NCBI RefSeq assembly: GCF_000191045.1
Contig: NC_015185.1
Location: 874,501 to 938,500 of the forward strand
Origin: Desulfurobacterium thermolithotrophum DSM 11699
GTDB taxonomy: Bacteria > Aquificota > Aquificia > Desulfurobacteriales > Desulfurobacteriaceae
Direction: 5' to 3'
Length of the DNA stretch: 64,000 nucleotides
Positions 801 through 13,176 of this stretch are shown here, piece by piece. The first letter of the stretch is position 1. Every line of letters starts with the position of its first letter. The translations under genes and the position numbers were made by a program. The notes under the pieces are model-generated. The model was not told where the DNA came from and did no database searches. It saw nothing but the letters and a program-made list of their open reading frames with translations.

Positions 801-828
801 ATGAACAGGTATTGAAGTAATATATGAA
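783..828. repeat. 23-bp tandem duplication upstream of tnpB
   Basis: Positions 783-805 and 806-828 are identical 23-mers. The second copy contains the tnpB start codon, and the first contains an ATG that meets an in-frame TGA after four codons. It looks like a recent slippage or duplication event. Confidence 0.9.
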
Positions 829-2005
829 TATGAAACTGCAACGCACTCTTAAACTTGTTCTTAAACCTACTGAAGAACAGAAACAAACACTCCTTGAAAC
901 CATTGAGCAGTATAAGTTTGCCTACAACTATACTTGTAAAGTTGGTTGGAGTGCAAAAACTTGGAACGGGATTGAGCTCCACAAACTTACCTATTACACG
1001 GTAAGAGAAAAAACCTCTCTCCCTTCTCAACTCGTTATTTCTGCAAGGGTTGTAGCTACTGAAAGCCTCAAATCTGCAATCAAGAGAAAGAAGAAAGGAC
1101 TCAAAAGCAAATGTCCTCAGAGCAACAATCCTGCTATCCGTTATGATAGGCGTTCCTATACTGTTTGGCTGGAAAGAGAAGAAGTCTCCCTCGCTACCGT
1201 TAAAGGAAGACAGAAGTTTAAGGTAAAAGTTCCTGATTACTTCAAGCAATACCTTGACTGGAGAGTTACTTCTGCGAATCTCAAGTATGACAAGAGACTT
1301 AAAAAGTTCTTTCTCAACATTACCTGTGAAAAGGAATTCCCCGATGTAGAACCTGTTAACTACTTCGTCGGAGTTGACCTTGGTCTCCGTAACCTTGCGG
1401 TAGTTTCTACTCCTGACGGAAAAATTAACAAGTTCTTTGATGGGGGACACATAAGGGCAGTTTCCGAAAGATATTTTGCACTTCGCAAGAGATTGCAGTC
1501 CAAAGGCACTCCTTCTGCAAAGAGGCACCTCAAGACACTTTCCCAGAAGGAGAAACGGTTTCGGACTGCTATTAACCATAGGATAGCAAAGGAGATAGTT
1601 AGCCTTGTTCCTGCTGGTGGAGTAATTGTCCTTGAGAAGCTCAAAGGAATCAGGAAAAGGATTAAGGTTAACAAGCAAAATAGACGCTGGATACACAGCT
1701 GGAACTTTGCACAGCTCCAGCAGTTTATAGAGTATAAAGCTCAAGCTAAGGGAATAAGAGTGGTCTATGTAGATGCACGCTACACCTCTCAAAAGTGTAG
1801 CAGATGCGGACACGTTTCTCGTTCTAACCGAATTGACCAGTCTCACTTTGTCTGCAAACATTGTAGTTACTCCCTTAACGCCAGCAGGAACATAGTTAAA
1901 AACTATCTGGCTTCTCTCCAAAGAGGAGAAGTCGGGACTGGGAGTGGTATATCCCTCCCAGTGGGGCGCTGTCAACCGTCCCAATGTAGCGGTGCTACCT
2001 GTTAG
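824..2005 (+). CDS. tnpB: TnpB-family RNA-guided nuclease homologue lacking RuvC-III Asp
   Basis: A 393-residue TnpB/OrfB. The N-terminal part is the basic helical/WED region. RuvC-I is seen as GVDLGLRN and RuvC-II as VIVLEKLKG. The C-terminal zinc ribbon has CSRC and CKHC pairs. TnpB proteins normally continue with a D-x-N-A-A-R-N-I motif whose Asp is the third RuvC catalytic residue. Here the text after the last cysteine is SYSLNASRNI, about four residues short and without Asp. A 12-bp deletion between short LNA-coding repeats would explain this. The protein may therefore be nuclease-dead. ATG codons at 824 and 830 are both possible starts. Confidence 0.85.
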   Translation: MNMKLQRTLKLVLKPTEEQKQTLLETIEQYKFAYNYTCKVGWSAKTWNGIELHKLTYYTVREKTSLPSQLVISARVVATESLKSAIKRKKKGLKSKCPQSNNPAIRYDRRSYTVWLEREEVSLATVKGRQKFKVKVPDYFKQYLDWRVTSANLKYDKRLKKFFLNITCEKEFPDVEPVNYFVGVDLGLRNLAVVSTPDGKINKFFDGGHIRAVSERYFALRKRLQSKGTPSAKRHLKTLSQKEKRFRTAINHRIAKEIVSLVPAGGVIVLEKLKGIRKRIKVNKQNRRWIHSWNFAQLQQFIEYKAQAKGIRVVYVDARYTSQKCSRCGHVSRSNRIDQSHFVCKHCSYSLNASRNIVKNYLASLQRGEVGTGSGISLPVGRCQPSQCSGATC

Positions 2006-2018
2006 CATCAGCTACAAG

Positions 2019-2038
2019 CTCCTTCCGTCAGGGAGGAG
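2019..2038 (+). ncRNA. Right-end hairpin / probable 3' end of omega RNA
   Basis: CTCCTTCC and GGGAGGAG form an 8-bp stem around a GTCA loop, 14 nt after the tnpB stop. In IS200/IS605 elements the omega RNA overlaps the end of tnpB and terminates at the right end, with the guide just beyond. The hairpin is seen directly; the RNA is inferred and its exact 3' border was not determined. Confidence 0.45.
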
Positions 2039-2064
2039 TAGTTGACGAAGCCTCCCCCATGTAT

Positions 2065-2083
2065 AAGGGACAAAAGTCCCCTT
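2065..2083 (-). terminator. Hairpin at the end of the beta-barrel gene
   Basis: AAGGGAC and GTCCCCTT pair with one bulged base around an AAAA loop, and the structure overlaps the beta-barrel stop codon. There is no good U-run on the minus strand, so it may be an RNA 3'-end or processing hairpin rather than an efficient terminator. Confidence 0.35.
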
Positions 2084-2972
2084 AAAATCTATAGCCTAGA
2101 GATATAGTCCCAACTGTTTGAGTAACATCTTTATTAACACTAACTTCTTTATAATCGTTTATACTAAAATCTAAAGCTAATCTTAAACCGTTACTGAAAG
2201 TATATCCAACTCCTCCGTAAACTCCTCCTTTGTACTTTTCTGTCAAGTTATAAACTACAAATCCTCCGTTTTTAACTGCAAAAATTTGTTCTCCAATCCA
2301 ACCTCCTACTTTAAAGTCATAGTTTCCATAGTAGTATCTTAAAGCTGCGTCTAATGAATAGTAGTTAGAACTTCCAATACCAATTTTTTTAGATTTGCTA
2401 ACGTGAATGTAATAACCTGTAGTGTCTAGATAGAGAGCTCCTTTCTGAAAATCTGAAAAAAGTTTGACTGTAGAATGAGGAGTTAACTGAAAAACATAGA
2501 AATCGGTAGTTTTATTATAGTCGGAATAGTAAATTCCAACACCGGCATTCCAGCTGAAAGCGTAAGGATATTGGTTTTCCGTCTGGAAATAAGTTCCGTC
2601 AAAAAATAGAGTATATCCACCATCAGTTAATTTATCGTCACTGTTTATGTAATGACCACCAAAGGTAAAAGTATGATTTTTCAAAATTCCGTTTGTATTG
2701 GAATAGACTGCTGTAAAATCTCTTTGATTTAGGGTAGATTTGTCTTTATACTTTATATGAGTGTAACCTGCCCCAAGCTGAACGTTATTTTCAATCCCAT
2801 CGCCAATACTTAAGTATCCTGTCGTTGCATAGCCATAATCTTTAATGCCTGAACCACTGTAGTTAATATAACTTCCATAGAGAGCTTCATAACCTGTAAC
2901 TTTTAACTCTTGAGCATTAGCTCCTAAACTTCCAAAAGCTAAAAGACTACATGCTAAGAGTAGTTTTCTCAT
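2082..2972 (-). CDS. Outer-membrane beta-barrel protein (function unknown)
   Basis: A 296-residue protein with a cleavable signal peptide (MRKLLLACSLLAFGSLGANA), then alternating aromatic/polar beta-strand segments rich in Tyr and Gly. It ends in LGYRF, the C-terminal aromatic residue expected of BAM-inserted barrels. It has the size of a 12-14-strand porin-like channel. Its start overlaps the end of the urea-transporter/M23 gene by 26 nt, indicating translational coupling. Given that partner it might be an outer-membrane channel for the same substrate, but this is inference; no family was recognised. Confidence 0.75.
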   Translation of the reverse strand: MRKLLLACSLLAFGSLGANAQELKVTGYEALYGSYINYSGSGIKDYGYATTGYLSIGDGIENNVQLGAGYTHIKYKDKSTLNQRDFTAVYSNTNGILKNHTFTFGGHYINSDDKLTDGGYTLFFDGTYFQTENQYPYAFSWNAGVGIYYSDYNKTTDFYVFQLTPHSTVKLFSDFQKGALYLDTTGYYIHVSKSKKIGIGSSNYYSLDAALRYYYGNYDFKVGGWIGEQIFAVKNGGFVVYNLTEKYKGGVYGGVGYTFSNGLRLALDFSINDYKEVSVNKDVTQTVGTISLGYRF

Positions 2973-5034
2973 GATTTCTCCTCCTTTTGATAATTATTTC
3001 TTTTCCGAAAGTTATTTTTTCAAATCCAAAGTCATTTGAAATCTTAAAAGTAGCTTTAATTTCCTTTGAAGGTAAACCTATATTAGATTCAATTTCATCT
3101 TGAGAAATAAAAGAGCTCTTTACTTTTACTTCAAACAGGTCATGTTTAAAAGAAGATAAGAATAAGAAAATTTCTCTTTTCAGCTTTGAAGAAAGAGTTA
3201 TCAGTGGAAGATAGTCTTCCCAAGTAAAATTTTCTCTATAAAGAATAGGAATTTTTGGAGCTGCAAAGAAGAAATACTTAAGAGGGGAGTTCAAATCTCC
3301 TTCAAGATGATAAAAGTAAAAAGTAGAGTTCTTTATTCCAAAATAAAGCTTGGCTTTTCCATCCGTAAGATAAAAAGTTCCATCAGGAGCCATTTTTACA
3401 ACTGTTTTAAGTTCTTTAAGCGTTTTCCCTTCTTTAACTACAAAATCCATTGTTTGATCTATCAGAAGATTTAATTTTTTTTGTAGTCCTTTATCAGGAA
3501 ATACTGGTTCAACAACTTCTCCTTCCTTAGGAATTCCAGCATCTTTAAAAGATTTATCTGTAATGTAGGAAGAAAAACTAAAGGGGACTGTGGGAGCTCC
3601 AACCTGAGGTAGAAGCTGAACGTGAACGTGAATGTGCGGTTGAGGAGAATAACCTGAATTTCCACAAAGTCCTAAAAGGGTTCCCTTTACTACATAATCT
3701 CCAACTTTTACCTTTATTGAATTTTGCTTAAAGTGACACAAAAGGACATAAAAACCTCTTTTGTCATAGATAAGAACGTAGTTTCCCCAGTTGTTTTCTT
3801 TGTCTGCTTCACCTGGAGGATTGTCAGGAAGAGAATTAACAACCGCAATAACCTGGCCATCAACAGGCGATAAAACAGGTTTTCCAAATGCATAGTAATC
3901 TGTCAGATAGTAACCTTCATTTTTATAAGTATTTCCATTTTCGTCAGTTATCACAAAGTCAACTGCGTATTTCCAAGCTCCTTTGTGGGTCCACTTTCCT
4001 TCAAAAGATTGCCATACTGTCCATCTTCCTGAAAAAGGAAGGTTTATTTCTCTTCCTGCAAACGGAAATCTTTTAGAAACCGTAAGGTAGTAGTCAAGAG
4101 TTCTTTCAGGTGTTCCTTTGTAAATTTTTGTAACGTAGAAATAACTTACAGAAAGGAGAACGTATAGAAGAAGGTGGGTTGTTGCATTAAACGGAAGGGC
4201 AAAAACTGGAAGACCATAGCTTTCCCAAAAAACTTTTGCTCCTTCAACAATTGGAACTGAAAGAATTGTCGAAATTATGGCAAATTTATAGCTCCTTAGA
4301 GATGGAATAAGGAAAACACCACCTATTGCCATTGAAGTGAGAATATAGTTAAAGGCTGACGAATCACTAACTGCTTGATAAAAAGAACCGACAAAAACGG
4401 CTTTTGTAAAAGTGCCTACAAGATACCCGGTTAAAGCTAAGAGAGAAAGTATTCTTGAAATAGTTAAAAGGATAAGGAAAATTACAAATCCTTCAAAAGG
4501 AGTTGGCATGAAAAAGATTGCTCCAAGTGATTTAAAGAAGCCTTCTACTAAAAGGGGTAAATGAAGATTGAATAAACTTTCAAAGTGTGGATAAAGGCTA
4601 CTAACAAACAAGTTTGAAAACTTTGAGGCTGCTAAATAAAGAAGAGAACTTGCCACTACAAAAGGAACGCTTAACACTGGAAGCTTAAGATAGTAAGAAA
4701 ATATGCTTGATAGGATATAAGTAAGTAAAAAACTAAGAATTCCAGCTATTGAAAAGAAGAAAAGACTTAAAAAGTTAACCTTAAATAGATATCCAAGAGA
4801 AAGTCCTACAAGAAGAGGATTGTATATATAGTAGTCAAGCCTCAAGAATTCTTCTTTAAAACCAACAAGTCTTGCAAAAATATAAGCAGAAGCTACAGCA
4901 GTAAAACCACCGATACCTAAATTGGGATTAATAAAAGTAAGAAGAAGAAGTATAATCCCCCCTTTAGCACTGGAGTTAAAGAGAATCGCTGAATAACTTC
5001 TAACTATTGGGAGGAAAAAACTTCCTAATTTCAT
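2947..5034 (-). CDS. Urea-transporter-like membrane protein fused to M23 peptidase domain
   Basis: A 695-residue two-part protein. Residues about 1-300 hold around ten hydrophobic segments with the style and spacing of SLC14/UT-type urea transporters, including repeated LxxPxxxxPF-type motifs. Residues about 335-480 form an M23/LytM fold, with NWGNYVLIYDKRGFYVLLCH and an HIHVHVQ metal-binding motif. The remaining ~200 residues are unassigned. M23 proteins act on peptidoglycan cross-links or as inactive activators. The start overlaps the decarboxylase stop by 4 nt (ATGA-type coupling). The transported substrate is not proven: urea or a small amide are candidates. Confidence 0.8.
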   Translation of the reverse strand: MKLGSFFLPIVRSYSAILFNSSAKGGIILLLLTFINPNLGIGGFTAVASAYIFARLVGFKEEFLRLDYYIYNPLLVGLSLGYLFKVNFLSLFFFSIAGILSFLLTYILSSIFSYYLKLPVLSVPFVVASSLLYLAASKFSNLFVSSLYPHFESLFNLHLPLLVEGFFKSLGAIFFMPTPFEGFVIFLILLTISRILSLLALTGYLVGTFTKAVFVGSFYQAVSDSSAFNYILTSMAIGGVFLIPSLRSYKFAIISTILSVPIVEGAKVFWESYGLPVFALPFNATTHLLLYVLLSVSYFYVTKIYKGTPERTLDYYLTVSKRFPFAGREINLPFSGRWTVWQSFEGKWTHKGAWKYAVDFVITDENGNTYKNEGYYLTDYYAFGKPVLSPVDGQVIAVVNSLPDNPPGEADKENNWGNYVLIYDKRGFYVLLCHFKQNSIKVKVGDYVVKGTLLGLCGNSGYSPQPHIHVHVQLLPQVGAPTVPFSFSSYITDKSFKDAGIPKEGEVVEPVFPDKGLQKKLNLLIDQTMDFVVKEGKTLKELKTVVKMAPDGTFYLTDGKAKLYFGIKNSTFYFYHLEGDLNSPLKYFFFAAPKIPILYRENFTWEDYLPLITLSSKLKREIFLFLSSFKHDLFEVKVKSSFISQDEIESNIGLPSKEIKATFKISNDFGFEKITFGKEIIIKRRRNHEKTTLSM

Positions 5035-6386
5035 TTTAACCTTAGCCTCTCTGGAAGTTTCTCTCTTCCTGTGATATCAGATAAATCTTCAGCCTCACGA
5101 ATAACATCAATTTCTCCATTATCTCCAATTAAGACTACTGCTGGTTTGTATCTTATAAATTGCATCCACTGAGTAACGTTGTAGGCTCCAACAGGTGAGA
5201 TAACTAATCTCGTGCCTCTTGGAAGAGGTGGCAAATATACAAGATCATCAACTACGTCAATGTTCATACAAAGTGGCCCGTATAGAATGCAAGGTTCTGT
5301 TAATCCTTGAACTTCCCTATCTATCTCAATATTAAAGTGATACCAAAATGCAGTAAACAAAATGTTAACTCCAGCATCAAGAACATAAGCCCTTTTTCCA
5401 TCTGGCATTCTTTTTGCTGCATGAACTGTTGTAATTAAAAAACCAGCTTCATCAACAATTGCTCTTCCACTTTCAACTATAAGTTTTGGATAGTCTCCAG
5501 GTCTTAAAGAAGATAAAAGAGTATTGCAAACTCTTTCTGCAAATTCATCAATTGATGGAACTGATACATCGGGGGGAAGATATATTCCTCTCAATCTATT
5601 CTTTGAAGGGAAACCTCCTCCAATGTCAATATATTCAACCTTAAATCCAAACTCATCTTCAATTTTGTAAGCAAATTCAACCATTTTTCTAACTTCATTT
5701 TCATAAGCTTTTGGTTCTAAAATAAACGTTCCTATATGGCAGTGAAGACCATTAAGCTCAATTTTTCCACCTGAAGCAATTCTCTTTACAGCATCCCATG
5801 CCTGACCGTTTTCAAGATTAAAGCCAAATCTGGTCCATTGAGGATGAATTCCTGTATCCATATTGAGTCTTATCCCTGCTTTAACCTTTACTCCAAGCTC
5901 GTCAGCAACTTGTTCAAGGTCTGCTATTTCCTCAAAGTGGTCAATGTTTATCCTTGCTCCTTCTGCGGCAGCAACTCTCAGAGACTCAATTGGCTTGTAG
6001 GGACCGTTGTAGATTATCTGATTTCCCTCAACTCCTAATTTTCTTGCTTTCTCGTACTCGAATTCTGAAACAACCTCTGCAGTTTCTCCTTCGCTGTGAA
6101 GAATTGCACAGATTGCATCAAGGTAGTTTGTTTTGTAAGACCAGCTAAATTCAACGTTTGGATATCTTAAGGTAAAGGCATTTTTTATTTCTCTAAACTT
6201 TTGACGGAGTTTCCTCTCGGAAAATACAAAAAGTGGAGAGCCAAACTTTTCTACAAGCTTTTCAATAGGCACTCCTTCAATTTCTTTTCTTACTTTCTTT
6301 CTATAGACAGAAGAAAATTTTCCAAATTTATTCATCAGCCCGGTCTTTAATTTAAATATCACAGGCTTTTCGTATGGCTTTTTCAT
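5031..6386 (-). CDS. Fold-III PLP-dependent decarboxylase with leader-like N-terminus
   Basis: A 451-residue member of the LysA/ornithine/BtrK-type alanine-racemase-fold decarboxylases. Visible elements are the PLP lysine in SYKTNYLDA, GLHCHIGTF, the phosphate-binding DIGGGFPS, VESGRAIVDEAG and the C-terminal active-site GPLCMNID. The first ~25 residues (MKKPYEKPVIFKLKTG, then GLMNKFG) are an extra segment with the YxxP pattern of RiPP leader peptides recognised by PqqD-like RRE domains. The ATG at 6386 has an AGGGAGG ribosome site, so this tail is genuinely in frame and translated. A PqqD-like gene and an ATP-grasp gene lie directly upstream. The substrate is unknown; decarboxylation of a carrier- or peptide-bound amino acid is plausible by analogy with BtrJ/BtrK. 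Confidence 0.85.
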   Translation of the reverse strand: MKKPYEKPVIFKLKTGLMNKFGKFSSVYRKKVRKEIEGVPIEKLVEKFGSPLFVFSERKLRQKFREIKNAFTLRYPNVEFSWSYKTNYLDAICAILHSEGETAEVVSEFEYEKARKLGVEGNQIIYNGPYKPIESLRVAAAEGARINIDHFEEIADLEQVADELGVKVKAGIRLNMDTGIHPQWTRFGFNLENGQAWDAVKRIASGGKIELNGLHCHIGTFILEPKAYENEVRKMVEFAYKIEDEFGFKVEYIDIGGGFPSKNRLRGIYLPPDVSVPSIDEFAERVCNTLLSSLRPGDYPKLIVESGRAIVDEAGFLITTVHAAKRMPDGKRAYVLDAGVNILFTAFWYHFNIEIDREVQGLTEPCILYGPLCMNIDVVDDLVYLPPLPRGTRLVISPVGAYNVTQWMQFIRYKPAVVLIGDNGEIDVIREAEDLSDITGREKLPERLRLK

Positions 6387-6407
6387 GTTATGACCTCCCT
6401 TTGCCTT

Positions 6408-7436
6408 CTAACTTTCTCCTCTTGTTACAACTTTTTGAAACTCTGACATGTCTGTTACAAAATCATCTGTAAATCTTATGTAAAGCTTTCCAGCTTCATA
6501 ATCTGAATCTCTTTCAGGTTCAACCCCAAGAGCTGCTTTTAAAAGTCTTCCTGGAAGGTTTACTCCAATACCTGTTGAAAAGTAGACCCATGCAGGAAAT
6601 CTTGGATTTACTTCTATGAGGCAGATTTCTTTCTCGTTTACTATGCATTCAAACTCGAAAGCTCCCCTCCATTTGAACTCAGAAACAAACTTTTCTGCAG
6701 CACGAAGAAGTCTCTCATTTCTAACAGTAACTCCCGTCCAGATTTTTCCAAGGCTTGTAATCCAGAGCTTCTTTATTCCTACAAGGCCAAAGTGGCTCCC
6801 TTCTCCATCTCCAACTCCAACAACGTTCATTTCCTCACCACTCACAACCTGCTGGACGATTACTGGATAACCCCACTCTGCGACTATAGAGTTGAAGTAA
6901 GATGTAGCCTGGGTAATATTGAAAGCTTTATAAGCTTTATAGAAAATCCCCTTTATCATAACAGGGAAACCAATCTCTTCCACGGCTTTACTCAGTTCTT
7001 CGTATGAGGTAACAATCCTCGTTTCAGGAACTTTTACTTCTATCTTTTCTGCGATTTCAGGTAATCTGTCCTTTCCCCTCAGCTTAAACTGTTCCTCTGT
7101 GGGAAGAAATGTTTTAATTCCGTAGCTTTCAAGAAGTGAAGCACCTTTAATAAAAAGGGGAAGCTCGGCATCAAGGGCTGGAATTACAGCATCAAGACCA
7201 TAGGTTGTCTTTATGTAGAGAAGCCTTTCGATAAAAGGTTCCTCTCCCTCAGAAGGATAGGGCATGATAAAACTCTTATCTATAAGCCACTTCATGTATA
7301 TCCCAGGCTCCATAGCATCATAGGCAAGTCCAAAGATAGAAACCTCAAGACCACTCTCTTTTAATCCCTTTGCAATTCCAACTCCGGGACCAGGATTATC
7401 GACTGCGTTTATTCCAGAAACTGCAACCCTATACAT
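6408..7436 (-). CDS. ATP-grasp ligase
   Basis: A 342-residue carbamoyl-phosphate-synthase-like ATP-grasp protein. It has an N-terminal Rossmann-like pre-domain (VAVSGINAVDNPGPGVG), the ATP-binding lysine region (GFPVMIKGIFYKAYK) and the metal-binding C-terminal segment FEFECIVNEKEICLIEVNPRF split across the fold. Such enzymes join a carboxylate to an amine, thiol or carrier through an acyl phosphate. Its start overlaps the PqqD-like gene by 8 nt and it is followed 21 nt later by the PLP decarboxylase, suggesting consecutive steps. The reaction partners are not evident from sequence. Confidence 0.85.
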   Translation of the reverse strand: MYRVAVSGINAVDNPGPGVGIAKGLKESGLEVSIFGLAYDAMEPGIYMKWLIDKSFIMPYPSEGEEPFIERLLYIKTTYGLDAVIPALDAELPLFIKGASLLESYGIKTFLPTEEQFKLRGKDRLPEIAEKIEVKVPETRIVTSYEELSKAVEEIGFPVMIKGIFYKAYKAFNITQATSYFNSIVAEWGYPVIVQQVVSGEEMNVVGVGDGEGSHFGLVGIKKLWITSLGKIWTGVTVRNERLLRAAEKFVSEFKWRGAFEFECIVNEKEICLIEVNPRFPAWVYFSTGIGVNLPGRLLKAALGVEPERDSDYEAGKLYIRFTDDFVTDMSEFQKVVTRGES

Positions 7437-7680
7437 TTTGTGCCTCCACCAATCCGTAAAGCCTGAGCTGTTCTAAAAAGTCCACCAGATCCCTTTTTGC
7501 TTCATCTTCACCAATTTCAAACTCTTCTGTAAGAGCTTTTACTATCTCTTCCTCGTTCTTTCCATCCTTTAGGAGTTTGATTATGAAGAGCCCTGTTTTG
7601 TTTACCGTGTAACTGTTTCCCGTTTCTGGATCAAAGATGAAGCCTTCATCGTTGATTGCTAACCTTTCAAGTTTTCCCAT
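7429..7680 (-). CDS. PqqD-like / RRE peptide-binding protein
   Basis: An 83-residue protein with the PqqD winged-helix pattern: INDEGFIFDPETGNSYTVN, then TGLFIIKLLKDG, EEIVKALTEEF and a final helix DLVDFLEQLRLYGLV. PqqD-family proteins bind leader peptides and present them to tailoring enzymes. It is embedded between the b-type cytochrome (1-bp overlap at 7680) and the ATP-grasp gene (8-nt overlap). No small precursor peptide gene was found nearby; the most leader-like sequence is the N-terminus of the decarboxylase at 6386. Confidence 0.8.
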   Translation of the reverse strand: MGKLERLAINDEGFIFDPETGNSYTVNKTGLFIIKLLKDGKNEEEIVKALTEEFEIGEDEAKRDLVDFLEQLRLYGLVEAQNV

Positions 7681-8486
7681 TATTTACCCCCTTGAAGAAT
7701 TTCAATTATTTGATAAGGATATTTACCGTTTTTAAAAGCTATATCTCTCAGCTGCTGGTTAAGGTCTGCAACAATTCCATGCTTTTTCAGTATTTCAAGA
7801 CACGCCTTAGGAGAAATCTGGAGTTCCTGACAAACTTCTCTCAAAGTCAATCTTCCCATTCCTGAACCGGGCTGAAAGCGGAACTCCCTTGTTTTCTTTG
7901 ATGCTCCTAAGAGAATCTCGTAGATTCTCGCAGGTGTAGTGTTATTCTTCACTGCAATTTCTTTGAGAGTCTCATTTGGAGATTTAACCTTTATTCCCTT
8001 TGACTCAAGAACATCAATTGCCTTTTGGGGAGATAATCCGACTGCTTTAGCAACTTTCTTAAGAGGAAATAGCTCCGCATGGGGTGCTGGGGGCATAGTT
8101 TCTGGTTTGGGCCAGCTGTTCTTTATCCTCTCTCCGATATCCATAACCGTTTTGAAGGGAGGAACGTTAGCAATGGTTCCGACAACAACAGTAAGAGCAA
8201 TAATGGTTGTTATGAAAAACTCCTTTGAGGTGAAGATTCCAGCTTTTCCTTTCAGATAACTAACAATGTTCCTCCAGTTTAGGATGACGTGCCAGATACC
8301 AAAAAAGACCATTAGAAACCCAAATATTGTGTGAAGACTATCCCACTGGTCTTTGTCCAGTCCTAAAAATCTCCAGCCAGTCCAGTAAGCAATCCTTCCG
8401 TGGGGCATGACGTAGAGAACAATTCCACTAATCGTCATTGCTATAAGAGTGTAAAGTAAAAACAGGCTAACGTATCTACGCAACAT
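7680..8486 (-). CDS. DUF4405-type membrane cytochrome b with duplicated C-terminal helical domain
   Basis: A 268-residue protein. Residues 1-130 have four membrane helices, with histidines in MPHGRIAYW, LHTIFGFLMVFFGIWH and adjacent segments suited to bind b-type haem, as in DUF4405/cytochrome b561-like proteins. After a Pro-rich linker come two copies of a ~50-residue helical unit (LKKVAKAVGLSPQKAIDVLE and LTLREVCQELQISPKACLEI). Each has SPxxxxxxL followed by LKEIAVKN or LRDIAFKN. The start at 8486 (GGGAGG 5 nt upstream) is preferred over the ATG at 8507. It overlaps neither domain of the DUF2202 gene, which ends at 8498. Confidence 0.75.
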   Translation of the reverse strand: MLRRYVSLFLLYTLIAMTISGIVLYVMPHGRIAYWTGWRFLGLDKDQWDSLHTIFGFLMVFFGIWHVILNWRNIVSYLKGKAGIFTSKEFFITTIIALTVVVGTIANVPPFKTVMDIGERIKNSWPKPETMPPAPHAELFPLKKVAKAVGLSPQKAIDVLESKGIKVKSPNETLKEIAVKNNTTPARIYEILLGASKKTREFRFQPGSGMGRLTLREVCQELQISPKACLEILKKHGIVADLNQQLRDIAFKNGKYPYQIIEILQGGK

Positions 8487-8497
8487 CACTCCCTCCC

Positions 8498-9808
8498 TTA
8501 CGGGCATCTTCTGACTTGATACTCTAAGCCCTTAGAAAGGTTTTTAATCTCACAGGCCATGTAGGTACCGGAAAGGTTTAATCTCCTCCAGGTTGGAGGG
8601 ATAAATACTATAACTTCAAGAGTGTCTCCTGCTGAAACGTTCAACTCGGGAAATCTGAAAGCAGGAGCAAGATAAACCTTAACCTTTCCGCTCTGGGTTT
8701 CAAGCTCGGCCACCCACCAGGTTATGTTCTTTCTTCTGATTCCTGGTTCTTGGCTGATAGAAATAACTTTTCCCGTCACAACCTGACTCTTCCTGAAAAA
8801 CATACTGGAAGCTGTAGAAGTTTTGTCCTTAATAGTCATTCCCCTGCACCATCTTCTCAAATTTGAGAAGTCGTAAACCGCGCCTGTCGTTCTATCTTCA
8901 ACCCTACATGCCATCAACCCATTTATACCTCTCATTACCCAATAGGGCGGCATAAAACCTGTAACCCTTACCTCGTTGCCTTTGTTTATGTTTAGCGTTG
9001 GATACCACCAGGTAGGAGCAATTCTTACTTCAACCGTTCCGCTATTTGTCTGGATGTCTACTGCCCACCAGGTAATGTTCTGCCTCCTAAATCCCGGTAC
9101 TTTCTTAACGTTGACAACTGTTCCTGTTATTTCGTTGTTATTCACACTTGTCTGAGTTCCTGACGAACTGTAAAATCCTGCTTCGTGCTTAACCGAGAGT
9201 ATCCGATTGAACTCAGCTTTTGAGATATATTGAGGAGTATAGTCGCTACCATATCTCCTTAGAATTCTAACAAACGCTCTCATGTGGTTTCTTGAGCCTT
9301 TCATTAAGTTTTGATAAACAGTTTTGATATCCTGGTTATCAGTTCTTTTAAGAGCTTCTTCAAGGTCTTTAATGTCAAGGTCCTCTATTGTAGCTCCTAC
9401 TTTCAATGCGTTTATCAGAGACTTCTTTCCCTCCTCCACAAGTCGTTTATAGAGCTCCTGAAGCTTTCCATCTTTAAACACTCCTACTCTATTACCGGTC
9501 TCTGAAACAGGATCTGAAAGGTTATACTTTTTGAGAAGAAGACCAACCATTCTCATATGCTGCTCTTCAGCTTTAGCGATGTTTCTAAACACCGGAAGCG
9601 AATAGTACTTTGATAAGGTTAAATAAACGTCCCTTGCAAGTTTTTCCTCTTCTCTCATGTGAAGAAGGTCTTTTATCTCTTCCTGGCTAAGAGACTGCTT
9701 TGGAAGGTTTTGGATATAGTAAACACCGTAGATTCTCGGTGTGGCTCCAGCTACCGGTGAAGTAAGGAAAAGCAGCAATACTGAAGAAAGTTTCAGTACC
9801 TTTCTCAT
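8498..9808 (-). CDS. Exported DUF2202 ferritin-like protein with two repeated C-terminal domains
   Basis: A 436-residue secreted protein (signal peptide MRKVLKLSSVLLLFLTSPVAGA). Residues ~40-190 match the DUF2202 four-helix pattern: MREEEKLARDVYL, KAEEQHMRMVGLL and GSRNHMRAFVRIL supply Glu/His ligands for a metal site. After residue ~225 two homologous ~95-residue units follow. Both contain the pattern PG(F/I)RR(Q/K)NITWW and MAC(R/E)(V/I), and end with a nearby Cys, so the cysteines probably pair. It is first in the operon and directly behind a sigma-54 promoter. The redox or metal role is inferred from the fold; the true reaction is unknown. Confidence 0.8.
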   Translation of the reverse strand: MRKVLKLSSVLLLFLTSPVAGATPRIYGVYYIQNLPKQSLSQEEIKDLLHMREEEKLARDVYLTLSKYYSLPVFRNIAKAEEQHMRMVGLLLKKYNLSDPVSETGNRVGVFKDGKLQELYKRLVEEGKKSLINALKVGATIEDLDIKDLEEALKRTDNQDIKTVYQNLMKGSRNHMRAFVRILRRYGSDYTPQYISKAEFNRILSVKHEAGFYSSSGTQTSVNNNEITGTVVNVKKVPGFRRQNITWWAVDIQTNSGTVEVRIAPTWWYPTLNINKGNEVRVTGFMPPYWVMRGINGLMACRVEDRTTGAVYDFSNLRRWCRGMTIKDKTSTASSMFFRKSQVVTGKVISISQEPGIRRKNITWWVAELETQSGKVKVYLAPAFRFPELNVSAGDTLEVIVFIPPTWRRLNLSGTYMACEIKNLSKGLEYQVRRCP

Positions 9809-9846
9809 GTTCTATCTCCTTTATCAGGTTTTTCTCTAAACATTAA

Positions 9847-9862
9847 AGCAAGCCTTATGCCA
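9847..9862 (-). promoter_or_regulatory. Sigma-54 (-24/-12) promoter of the DUF2202 operon
   Basis: On the minus strand the text reads TGGCATAAGGCTTGCT: GG and GC are separated by exactly 10 nt, matching the consensus TGGCAYR-N4-TTGCW almost fully. The predicted start point is about 9837, leaving a short leader before the ATG at 9808, which has AAGGAG upstream. A sigma-54 promoter needs an AAA+ activator, and one is encoded at 11067-12380. Confidence 0.85.
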
Positions 9863-9901
9863 GGTGTAAAATTAAGAAAAACAAAAACTTTTCAACAAAA
9901 T

Positions 9902-9949
9902 TTCGGAAAAAATTCCGAATTTACTCTATATAGTCGGAAAAGTTTCCGA
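9902..9949. promoter_or_regulatory. Paired dyad sites, probable upstream activating sequences
   Basis: Two similar inverted repeats occur: TTCGGAA-4-TTCCGAA (9902-9919) and TCGGAAA-2-TTTCCGA (9934-9949). Their centres are 31 bp apart, close to three helical turns, and lie about 74 and 105 bp upstream of the predicted sigma-54 start point. This is the geometry of NtrC-type enhancer sites. The adjacent response regulator is the obvious candidate binder, which is inference. Confidence 0.75.
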
Positions 9950-9954
9950 ATATC

Positions 9955-11070
9955 CTAAGAGATGGGAATGGAGACTTTGAAAACTGTCCAGCCGTCTCTG
10001 ACAAAGGCTTCTATCTCTCCCCCGTGAGCTTCTGCAACTCTTTTAGCATTATAAAGTCCAAGACCAAATCCTTTTTCCTTTGTTGAACGGAAAGGTTCAA
10101 AAAGCTCTGCTCCTGGCAGCTTCCCCCCACTATCCATTATGTAGAAGGTGTAATAGTTTCCTTCTTTCTTTCCTAAAATTTTTAACGCCTTCTTTTCACT
10201 ATCTTCAAGGGCTTCAATTCCATTTTTTATAAGGTCTATAAGAAGAGAGGAAAATTTTTCAGGGTCAAGTTCAAGTTCTGCTTTTTCAACTTTTGTTTCA
10301 ACATCTATTCCCTTAGTTTTTAGAAGTTCATCAAACTTTGAAACAACATCTTTTATAAGAAAGAAGATATCTGTTTTTTCCTTGGAAAGAGTCAGTGGTT
10401 TTCTTAAGTTCGCTGTCTCTTCCACGTATTTTCCTAACTTGTCTATTTCTTCACGGAGCTTTTGAAGATAGGTTTCGTCAAAGGAGCTCCCCAATCTGTA
10501 CACCAAAAGTCTGAGAACATTAAGACGATTTTTAACTTCATGGATAAGAGAGTGTATCACTAAATTTATACTTTCAAGTTTTTCTTTTTCCTGTTTTTCT
10601 CTTTCATAAAGAATTCTTTCCTTAAAGTATTCTCTTACCAGCCATACTGTAACGGCTGTAAACAGAAGGCTGAAGAAAAGAAGAGATATTAAAACGTAGG
10701 AAAGATGTTTGTTGAACTCTCTAACATAAGAAAAATCAAAGTATAGAGCAAAGGAAAAAGGCTGAACTTTAAAGGATTCTTTAAAATACTCTTGAGAAAT
10801 ATCTGAACCAGGAATTATTATTTCTCTACCTTCAAGTTTAAAAGTAGCTCCTTTCAATAATTTTGAGCTTTCCATATATGAAGTCAGAGCTTCTACAGGA
10901 TCGCCTCCTCCTGCTATTGTTCCTTCAACTACAGACTTAACGCGGGAGGTTTCTTCTTTTATTACAAACAAGTAAAACCCGTTAAGTTCATTACGAAGGA
11001 AATAGATGTTTAAAATGATGGCAACAAAGAGAATCGTTAATAAAGAAGCTGGAAAAAGCAGTTTTCTCAT
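9955..11070 (-). CDS. Membrane sensor histidine kinase
   Basis: A 371-residue kinase with an N-terminal membrane helix, a short periplasmic sensor (~residues 30-115), a second helix (~120-145), the H-box LIHEVKNRLNVL, N-box LIDLIKNGIEAL and G-boxes DSGGKLPGAE and GFGLGLYNAKR. It is the partner of the NtrC-type regulator, whose stop codon overlaps its start by 4 nt. The gene ends just before the paired dyads of the DUF2202 operon, so the pair probably senses the signal that turns on that operon. Ligand unknown. Confidence 0.88.
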   Translation of the reverse strand: MRKLLFPASLLTILFVAIILNIYFLRNELNGFYLFVIKEETSRVKSVVEGTIAGGGDPVEALTSYMESSKLLKGATFKLEGREIIIPGSDISQEYFKESFKVQPFSFALYFDFSYVREFNKHLSYVLISLLFFSLLFTAVTVWLVREYFKERILYEREKQEKEKLESINLVIHSLIHEVKNRLNVLRLLVYRLGSSFDETYLQKLREEIDKLGKYVEETANLRKPLTLSKEKTDIFFLIKDVVSKFDELLKTKGIDVETKVEKAELELDPEKFSSLLIDLIKNGIEALEDSEKKALKILGKKEGNYYTFYIMDSGGKLPGAELFEPFRSTKEKGFGLGLYNAKRVAEAHGGEIEAFVRDGWTVFKVSIPIS

Positions 11071-12380
11071 ATCCCGTACTTTTTCCTTTTATACCTCAAG
11101 GATTTTTCGTCTATACCAAGAAGTTTAGCTGCTTTAACTTGAACGTAATCACTCCTCTTTAAAGCTTCTTCTATCATTTTTTTCTCGAATTCAGCCAATT
11201 TCTCAGGCAGAGGTTTTGAGAAATCTATCTCATTGCAGTGATTCTCTTTCTCTTTTAGATCTGTAAGGTCTTCCGGTCTTATTTTATCCATACTTGTTAT
11301 GACAAGCCTATGAATGAGATTTTCAAGCTCTCTAACGTTTCCAGGAAAGGAATAGCTAAGAAGTATTTGAAGAGCCTCTGGGGTTATTTCTACTTTTTTA
11401 TTGTACTTTTTCGAAAATTTCCGAAGAAAAAATCCAGTTAGTTCCAAGATATCTTCAGGACGTTCTCTTAAGGGAGGAATTCTTAACGTTAAAACATTAA
11501 GCCGATAGTAAAGGTCTTCCCGAAAATCTCCTTTTTTGACTAACTCCCCCAAATCTCTGTTTGTAGCTGCAACTACTTTCACATCAACTTTTTTTGTCTG
11601 CGTTCCTCCAACACGCCGAACTTCGTTCTCCTGAAGAACTCTTAAAAACTTTGCCTGCAAGTTCAGAGGCAATTCTCCCACTTCATCAAGAAATATTGTT
11701 CCTCCGTCTGCTTCTTCAAAAAGTCCGGGTTTTGAGCGAAGAGCTCCAGTAAAAGCTCCCTTCTCATACCCAAAGAGTTCACTTTCAAAGAGTTCAGAAG
11801 GAATTGCAGCGCAATTTACAGATACAAATTTCCCTTTTCTGCCGCTTTCTTTGTGGATAAATCTTGCTATCAGTTCTTTGCCTACTCCACTTTCTCCCAA
11901 TATCAAGACAGGAGCTTCTGTTTTAGCAAAGAGAGAAGCCTTTTCGAGGAGCTCCTCCATTAACTTAGAAGCGTAAATTATTTCCCCATCCTTTTTAGGA
12001 ATCTTCCTCAGGCTTGCAAGCTGACAGGCTTTATCTATAAGATTTATTAGAACTTGTGGATCAAAAGGCTTGGTAACATAGTGAAAAGCTCCTGCCTTTA
12101 TTGCACTGACAGCATCCTCAACGTTGCTAAAGGCAGTTATGACTATTACTTCAATTTCAGAATGTTCCTGTTTTAGCTTTTTAAGAAAAGTTAGTCCATC
12201 CATACCTGGAAGTCTTACATCTGTAACAACAACAGCAGGAGAATTTTTCGCAACCGTTTGTAGTCCCTTTTCAGCAGTGGAAGAAGTAAAAACCTCAAAT
12301 CCAGACTCTTTAAGTATCTCCTTTAGGAGCTCTCTTTGAATATCATCATCTTCAATTATTAGAACCTTACGCTTTTCCAT
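11067..12380 (-). CDS. NtrC-family sigma-54-dependent response regulator
   Basis: 437 residues in three parts: a receiver domain with acidic pocket EDDD and phosphorylated Asp in VVVTDVRLPGMDG, an AAA+ domain with Walker A GESGVGKE and the sigma-54-contacting GAFTGA loop, and a C-terminal Fis-type helix-turn-helix (VQVKAAKLLGIDEKSLRYK). The ATG at 12380 is preferred to the upstream TTG at 12392. It lies between lpxI and the kinase in a tight run. It is the likely activator at 9902-9949 and perhaps elsewhere. Confidence 0.92.
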   Translation of the reverse strand: MEKRKVLIIEDDDIQRELLKEILKESGFEVFTSSTAEKGLQTVAKNSPAVVVTDVRLPGMDGLTFLKKLKQEHSEIEVIVITAFSNVEDAVSAIKAGAFHYVTKPFDPQVLINLIDKACQLASLRKIPKKDGEIIYASKLMEELLEKASLFAKTEAPVLILGESGVGKELIARFIHKESGRKGKFVSVNCAAIPSELFESELFGYEKGAFTGALRSKPGLFEEADGGTIFLDEVGELPLNLQAKFLRVLQENEVRRVGGTQTKKVDVKVVAATNRDLGELVKKGDFREDLYYRLNVLTLRIPPLRERPEDILELTGFFLRKFSKKYNKKVEITPEALQILLSYSFPGNVRELENLIHRLVITSMDKIRPEDLTDLKEKENHCNEIDFSKPLPEKLAEFEKKMIEEALKRSDYVQVKAAKLLGIDEKSLRYKRKKYGI

Positions 12381-12381
12381 C

Positions 12382-13176
12382 TTATACCGCAATAACAGTT
12401 ATTCCGTACTTTCTTGAAAGTCTTACAGCTTCTTCTTTATTAAGAAGAAAAGTTTTATTAGCTTCAAATATGAGAGCTCTTCCTTTAAGTTTGCCGATTA
12501 GCTCAATAGTCTTTGCTCCAACCGTTGGAACATCTACTCTCATATCCTGATTTTTCCTTGCAGCCTTACAGACAATAAAACCTTTTCCTGCAAGTTCTGC
12601 TCCCCTTTCTATGCACTTATCTGTTCCTTCTATTCCTTCAACTGCGATAACTGTTTTGTCTTTTACAACAACTGTCTGACCAATATCAAGAGAAGCAATC
12701 TCTTTTGCTATTTTCATTCCAAATTCTGCATCCTCTTTAAGCTTATCTGTCAGTTCCCCACAAATTATTCCAGGCTCTTGAAAAAGATGCAATAGATATT
12801 TTGTTGGTTCAATGACTCTAACTCCTATGTTTTCAATTTCTGAAATTATCCCTTTTATTATTGTTTCAGGTTTTCTATCCCTCAAAGAAGCGATAAAGGT
12901 TAAAGCTTTTAAATCAAATCCAGACAAAGAAATTGCGTTTTTATGTTCCACTTTGCCTAAAATAGCTATTTCTCTTATTTCTTCTTTTTTTAGTGTTCTT
13001 AGAAACTTACCAAGTTTAAATGGTTTTATCCAAATGACCTTATCAGAATATCTTTCAACTTCAGGACTCGTAATTCCTTCAAGGGAAAATGTTATCGTTC
13101 TTATATCTTTTTCTTTTGCCGATTTTAGAAATTCTAAAGGGAGCTCTCCTTTTCCAGCAAGGAGTCCAACCTTCAT
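12382..13176 (-). CDS. lpxI: UDP-2,3-diacylglucosamine pyrophosphatase LpxI
   Basis: A 264-residue DUF1009/LpxI protein. It hydrolyses UDP-2,3-diacylglucosamine to lipid X in lipid A synthesis and replaces LpxH in many non-gamma-proteobacteria. Seen: the N-terminal LLAGKGELPLEF and the C-terminal catalytic-domain stretch VAVEGIEGTDKCIERGAELA, plus KAARKNQDMRVDVPTVG. It overlaps nusB by 4 nt. Its presence supports a lipopolysaccharide-bearing outer membrane. Confidence 0.92.
   Translation of the reverse strand: MKVGLLAGKGELPLEFLKSAKEKDIRTITFSLEGITSPEVERYSDKVIWIKPFKLGKFLRTLKKEEIREIAILGKVEHKNAISLSGFDLKALTFIASLRDRKPETIIKGIISEIENIGVRVIEPTKYLLHLFQEPGIICGELTDKLKEDAEFGMKIAKEIASLDIGQTVVVKDKTVIAVEGIEGTDKCIERGAELAGKGFIVCKAARKNQDMRVDVPTVGAKTIELIGKLKGRALIFEANKTFLLNKEEAVRLSRKYGITVIAV

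Follow-up and report, generated by a model that had tools for sequence, protein, structure and literature searches.

A PqqD-like protein as a probable docking partner of a leader-bearing decarboxylase in a cassette found across bacterial phyla

The window analyzed in this study, a stretch of 64,000 nucleotides from Desulfurobacterium thermolithotrophum DSM 11699 (contig NC_015185.1, positions 874,501 to 938,500), carries a gene cassette encoding a PqqD-like protein (PqqD hereafter), an ATP-grasp ligase and an alanine-racemase-fold decarboxylase (DEC). PqqD is a recognition element (RRE) of the kind known from pathways of ribosomally synthesized and post-translationally modified peptides (RiPPs), and DEC begins with a leader-like segment, MKKPYEKPVIFKLKTGLMNKFG. 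Enzyme docking by an RRE in a small-molecule pathway is the best explanation of this arrangement and, in our opinion, a moderately probable one: PqqD would bind the N-terminal strand of DEC ([Y/F/W]xxPx[I/L/V]) in the alpha3/beta3 cleft, which holds the precursor leader in lasso systems, and would thereby bring DEC to the ATP-grasp ligase. An earlier note, made from the sequence of the window alone, had described a YxxP leader on DEC and PqqD and ATP-grasp genes directly upstream, which the coordinates and the N-terminus confirm (Table 1). It had also described overlapping gene ends: those of the PqqD and ATP-grasp genes do overlap (by 8 bases), but a gap of 21 bases separates the ATP-grasp and DEC genes. 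Beyond these three genes, the cassette includes members that the note had not listed: one encoding a fused urea-transporter/M23 peptidase protein (UT-M23) and, usually, those of a tetratricopeptide repeat (TPR) protein and of a candidate outer-membrane barrel (OMP).

The leader-like segment of DEC and its PqqD partner

The leader was characterized from 121 distinct orthologous DEC N-termini. Position 8 is a proline in 100% of them, position 5 is Y in 91% (W in 4%, F in 3%) and position 10 is I in 90%; a second conserved block follows (G16 93%, K20 90%, F21 80%, G22 86%, with N19 also within 80-93%). The mean entropy of residues 5-22 is 1.32 bits, compared to 1.20 for the catalytic body and 2.40 for the linker (residues 23-35). 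Since the motif positions are near-fixed and the conservation of the segment is close to that of the catalytic body, the leader is not due to chance. Its motif matches two recognition classes reported for RREs, YxxP and W/Y/LxxP/L/I (PMC12710340). A phmmer search of the PDB with the 26-residue leader gave no match. A DNA pattern for MNKFG, found in 84 of 136 Aquificota genomes, was tried and rejected: the matches that were read in cassette-free genomes (L131-L160) correspond to an unrelated conserved protein.

Among PDB sequences, PqqD matches only the lasso-peptide RREs TbiB1 and TfuB1, with which it shares the PqqD fold family and a YxxP-type recognition motif. Unlike in these lasso B1 systems, the motif sits here on a 451-residue enzyme, no precursor was found and no lasso enzymes recur; neither a lasso B2 protease nor an asparagine-synthetase-like cyclase was matched among the scanned cassette proteins. 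PqqD also passes the cut-off of NCBIfam TIGR04353, "HPr-rel-A system PqqD" (40.5 bits vs 35), a name that would mislabel it; no HprK-related kinase A was matched among the flanking proteins scanned, the remaining genome not having been searched for this kinase.

The leader and PqqD are both present in all 108 assessable loci out of 119, and neither was found alone; the other loci are cut short upstream (n = 3), lack DEC in the stretch (n = 5), have an unreadable DEC start (n = 2) or represent the outgroup (n = 1). The pattern set in advance as contrary to docking, i.e. one of the two without the other, was thus not seen. The outgroup L332 (34% identity) has neither; PqqD and a DEC leader, YEPPRIEKL, are both retained in L331, a divergent relative at 40% identity. 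Besides PqqD and the leader-bearing DEC, the latter locus (positions 1794-9020) encodes two proteins that resemble lipoproteins, a doubled ATP-grasp protein (714 aa) and a membrane protein with a weak urea-transporter match but devoid of M23 domain. Two apparent exceptions were rejected: L208, initially PqqD-free by tblastn, carries PqqD upstream of ATP-grasp, and the leader of the seemingly leader-free DEC of L206 was hidden by a frameshift. L329, in which PqqD and the DEC start are missing and the genes are incomplete, was counted neither way.

The association also holds where the trio is dispersed. Four genomes of one Aquificota family (G106, G109, G111 and G112) have DEC away from ATP-grasp, and in G108 the three genes lie on three different contigs, all being retained; the leader is present at every DEC start that was read in these genomes. 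Furthermore, a leader-profile search of 14 genomes returned one significant open reading frame (ORF) in each, always DEC (E 1e-9 to 1e-16, the next best being at least 0.09). No small leader-bearing ORF was found near DEC or elsewhere in the genome, which bears out the earlier observation that no small precursor gene is visible, and no precursor peptide with leader and core was detected in the 14 genomes or in the loci, by a profile that would miss different leaders. In nine of the 13 cassette genomes (the 14th, G415, being the outgroup), that of the window included, PF05402 matches no protein besides the cassette PqqD. With DEC as the sole ORF bearing the leader in each genome searched and, in most of them, PqqD as the sole match of PF05402, these searches reveal no other client. 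The neighbour families that recur at the loci are cassette genes, two-component genes and a few local families; RiPP enzymes are not among them.

The leader was also modelled with AlphaFold2. At locus L181, the three genes share one frame, and the DNA was translated through the stops into an artificial PqqD-ATP-grasp-DEC chain (PqqD without its first 13 residues), with an alignment of 38 in-frame read-through rows. In this chain, the leader block (residues 421-430) has a predicted local distance difference test (pLDDT) score of 69, residues 431-433 (I10-N11-P12 of DEC) form a strand, and residues 435-451 are below 50. In a control chain that differs by the removal of PqqD only, with a closely matched alignment, the same residues have a pLDDT of 26-30 and no secondary structure. 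This PqqD-dependent ordering, as predicted, is consistent with pairing of the strand to PqqD. Together with the dispersed trios and the sole-client searches, it lends support to the proposal, already made in the earlier note, that the RRE-like protein docks on the enzyme.

Active site and proposed chemistry

The two best structural matches of DEC are tied: FigC/FslC (7KH2; Z 32.0, root-mean-square deviation 3.0, 345 aligned residues) and the diaminopimelate decarboxylase (DAPDC) of M. jannaschii (1TWI; Z 31.6, deviation 3.1, 342 aligned residues). Its residues Lys85, His215 and Cys373 are conserved at 98% or more. Judging from its sequence, DEC is not LysA because (i) it scores 221 bits on the TIGR01048 lysA model, below the cut-off of 297.9, (ii) the genome has a separate LysA (518 bits), and (iii) the DAPDC marker residues, an acidic one after the catalytic Cys and a substrate-binding Arg in the specificity helix, are changed (CES to CMN and IRPA to FTAF, respectively). 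On NF041039 (FslC/FigC N-citrylornithine decarboxylase), it reaches 230.7 bits vs a cut-off of 500. FigC-like features of DEC are C373-M374 (a Met beside the catalytic Cys) and, in the specificity helix, Thr345/Tyr349, equivalent to T327/Y331 of FigC, all conserved at 98% or more. Decarboxylases of ornithine, lysine and arginine bind the free side-chain amine through an acidic residue; the pocket of DEC lacks it, like those of enzymes taking a ligase product, and is not built for citrate. In the ATP-grasp protein, NPRFPAW and other ATP-grasp residues are invariant.

From this FigC-like but non-citrate pocket, we infer that ligation by the ATP-grasp protein precedes decarboxylation by DEC. The ligase would join an amino acid, probably via its side-chain amine, to a carboxylate, and DEC would then strip the alpha-carboxyl of the conjugate, a role comparable to that of FigC after FigA. 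The rhizoferrin pathway of FigA/FigC (FslA/FslC) also associates a ligase with an alanine-racemase-fold decarboxylase, and FigC is the closest to DEC by both sequence and structure; however, the cassette ligase is an ATP-grasp protein and FigA an NRPS-independent siderophore (NIS) synthetase, and the citrate contacts of FigC are replaced in DEC (see below). To our knowledge, no RRE partner of FigC is known. In the daptide pathway, it is the substrate peptide that the RRE (MpaB/MpaC system) holds, and decarboxylation is oxidative (PMC10036551). The cassette resembles it in that an RRE brings a client to a decarboxylation step, but its RRE would hold the decarboxylase itself.

Docking weighed against other explanations

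Several points weigh against docking of DEC by PqqD. Co-occurrence by itself is weak support, as genes of one cassette are co-inherited anyway and would yield the same table; therefore, the dispersed trios, the client search and the motif match carry the weight. The model is a fused artificial chain with a truncated PqqD, a shallow alignment and a predicted template modelling (pTM) score of 0.50. The modelling of the complex, proposed in the earlier note, predicts that the leader becomes ordered with PqqD in this chain, and the strand partner was deduced from the comparison with the control. The contact between PqqD and ATP-grasp, by which DEC would be brought to the ligase, is hypothetical. 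Docking of YxxP alone leaves the conserved MNKFG block unexplained. Finally, His357 and Arg387, the proposed citrate contacts in the active site of FigC (PMC7857480), are replaced in DEC by Ile376 and Gln406; therefore, its product would not be a FigC-type citryl compound.

The main rival explanation is a RiPP-like modification of the N-terminus: PqqD would present the DEC leader to ATP-grasp, which would covalently modify the next block, for instance at Lys20 of MNKFG; such a change might activate or anchor the enzyme. It would account for the position of the second conserved block, which stands where a core would be expected after an RRE motif, and for ATP-grasp being always adjacent or kept in the genome. 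However, MNKFG is missing in one branch (L177, L184, L188, L190, L197 and L200) and altered in L208 and L219, though YxxP is kept in all of them, and the ATP-grasp protein is CPS/PRK12767-like, with a RimK match only below cut-off. We consider this modification unlikely. It is quite unlikely that the segment belongs to the fold, dimer or stability of DEC itself, PqqD doing something else such as binding ATP-grasp. Other members of the family do have pre-barrel residues (about 25 before the aligned region of the 7KH2 chain), but the segment of DEC is disordered in the prediction made without PqqD, is not aligned to solved relatives and bears a known RRE recognition motif.

A pair of the BtrJ/BtrK type (butirosin), the alternative raised in the earlier note, would have ATP-grasp load an amino acid onto a carrier protein on which DEC would decarboxylate it. 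As in that system, an ATP-grasp gene adjoins that of a decarboxylase of the same fold (BtrK, 2J66, Z 30.7), and the idea that a decarboxylase takes over the amino acid once a ligase has conjugated it, as with FigA and FigC, fits the active site. In contrast, the cassette adds PqqD, UT-M23, OMP and TPR genes, BtrK is no nearer to DEC than many other decarboxylases, and no carrier-protein family was found among the recurring neighbour ORFs of at least 120 codons, a scan that leaves out shorter carriers. The lack of a recurring carrier argues against this alternative, which is only partly apt and which we judge very unlikely as a whole. Least probable of all is an unlinked precursor peptide as the true client of PqqD, the leader of DEC being incidental or regulatory: PqqD-like proteins usually serve such peptides and our profile misses other leaders, but the 14 genomes gave no second leader-bearing ORF and RiPP enzymes do not recur at the loci.

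Distribution, layout and meaning of the cassette

Relatives of the cassette occur in at least 10 phyla, and no description of it was found in the open literature (subscription journals being outside this coverage). In Aquificota, 45 of the 136 genomes have some of the PqqD/ATP-grasp/DEC trio and 41 have all of it; the incomplete trios lack DEC (G084 and G090), consist of PqqD and a broken ATP-grasp gene without DEC (G107) or of DEC at a contig edge only (G121). Relatives numbered at least 500 in an ATP-grasp profile scan of GTDB representatives. According to record titles, some of which are doubtful for metagenome-assembled genomes (Klebsiella, Thermotogota), the 80 best come from Aquificota, Thermodesulfobacteria, Desulfofervidaceae, Verrucomicrobia, Lentisphaerae, Planctomycetota, Gammaproteobacteria (Thiomargarita, Chromatiaceae), Ignavibacteria, Kapaibacterium, Calditrichota, Gemmatimonadetes, Desulfurellales and others, and nearly all have the gene order PqqD, ATP-grasp, DEC, UT-M23. 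The nearest named relative is an uncultured Desulfurobacterium (L161, ATP-grasp 94% identical). DEC relatives with the same neighbour genes were found in the class of G140 (32 of 197 genomes, about 46-51% identity) and in the order of G143 (11 of 195 genomes). On plasmids, tblastn with ATP-grasp gave only relatives of 20-28% identity.

Two genomes show unusual copies. The PqqD of G108 (L109, 1501-1749) stands alone and is unusually close (about 72-75%) to that of Desulfurobacterium, perhaps as a result of horizontal transfer or contamination. G116 (L033, 9193-11830) shows a partial duplication: at about 1.7 kb from the intact copies are a second PqqD, 82% identical to that of the window, and an ATP-grasp cut after its first 161 residues.

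UT-M23 is encoded in nearly all cassettes. In its M23 domain (window 3600-4010), the Asp, the mid-domain His and HxH are kept across phyla, and a Lys/Arg beside a conserved TH apparently replaces the first metal His, so that peptidase activity is uncertain. The TPR gene follows UT-M23 on its 3′ side in 65 of the 83 loci, and TPR-OMP fusions occur in several verrucomicrobial loci. A homologue of OMP has a weak match to OmpG-type porins, below cut-off. The TPR protein weakly matches the TPR parts of exporters such as PgaA and BcsC, at most a hint of export. The association of UT-M23 with a TPR protein and an outer-membrane barrel suggests that the product is exported, in which case it would probably leave the cell via these three proteins.

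Table 1. Features of the cassette in the window
Feature	Position	Strand	Basis
PqqD-like RRE protein (83 aa)	7429-7680	minus	Pfam PF05402, E 2.7e-18, 66.5 bits vs cut-off 23.4
ATP-grasp ligase (342 aa), PRK12767/CPS (carbamoyl-phosphate synthase)-like	6408-7436	minus	Domain matches and invariant ATP-grasp residues
DEC, alanine-racemase-fold pyridoxal phosphate (PLP) decarboxylase (451 aa)	5031-6386	minus	Orn/DAP/Arg decarboxylase domains; closest solved structure 7KH2
Leader-like N-terminal segment of DEC, residues 1-22	6321-6386	minus	Conserved N-terminus; outside the alignment to the top solved decarboxylases
Leader core YEKPVI, DEC residues 5-10	6357-6374	minus	Fits the YxxP class of RRE recognition sequences (PMC12710340)
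Second conserved leader block MNKFG, DEC residues 18-22	6321-6335	minus	Absent from the Thermosulfurimonas/Thermodesulfatator-type branch
UT-M23, urea-transporter domain fused to a C-terminal M23 peptidase domain (695 aa)	2947-5034	minus	PF03253, E 1e-66; PF01551, E 5e-12
OMP, secreted candidate outer-membrane barrel (296 aa)	2082-2972	minus	No Pfam match; conserved position directly 3′ of UT-M23
Secreted TPR protein (204 aa), sixth cassette gene	100-714	minus	TPR Pfams

In the window, an IS605-type TnpB element (740-2060; ORF 824-2005, plus strand) splits the OMP gene from the TPR gene, which are adjacent in relatives. Upstream of the cassette (7680-12392) are genes for DUF4405 and DUF2202 proteins and for a sigma54-type response regulator and a histidine kinase. 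This set was seen in Desulfurobacteriaceae and some Thermodesulfobacteria and is absent in most other phyla; it is possibly a metal- or redox-linked regulation unit.

RREs serve as markers of ribosomal peptide pathways. One published filter of RiPP neighbourhoods lists PF02222 and would let through a PqqD gene with an ATP-grasp neighbour. As the likely client is here an enzyme, such clusters could be misfiled as RiPP clusters without precursor. It may well be, although we see the chances as even, that an RRE and its leader have been repurposed as an enzyme clamp joining the ligase and DEC in a widespread small-molecule pathway whose product leaves by a dedicated UT-M23/TPR/outer-membrane route. 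If true, this would be a second use of the RRE and would provide a natural peptide tag for tethering enzymes; it would also imply an undescribed, widespread metabolite in deep-sea chemolithotrophs, verrucomicrobia, planctomycetes, Bacteroidota and gammaproteobacteria.

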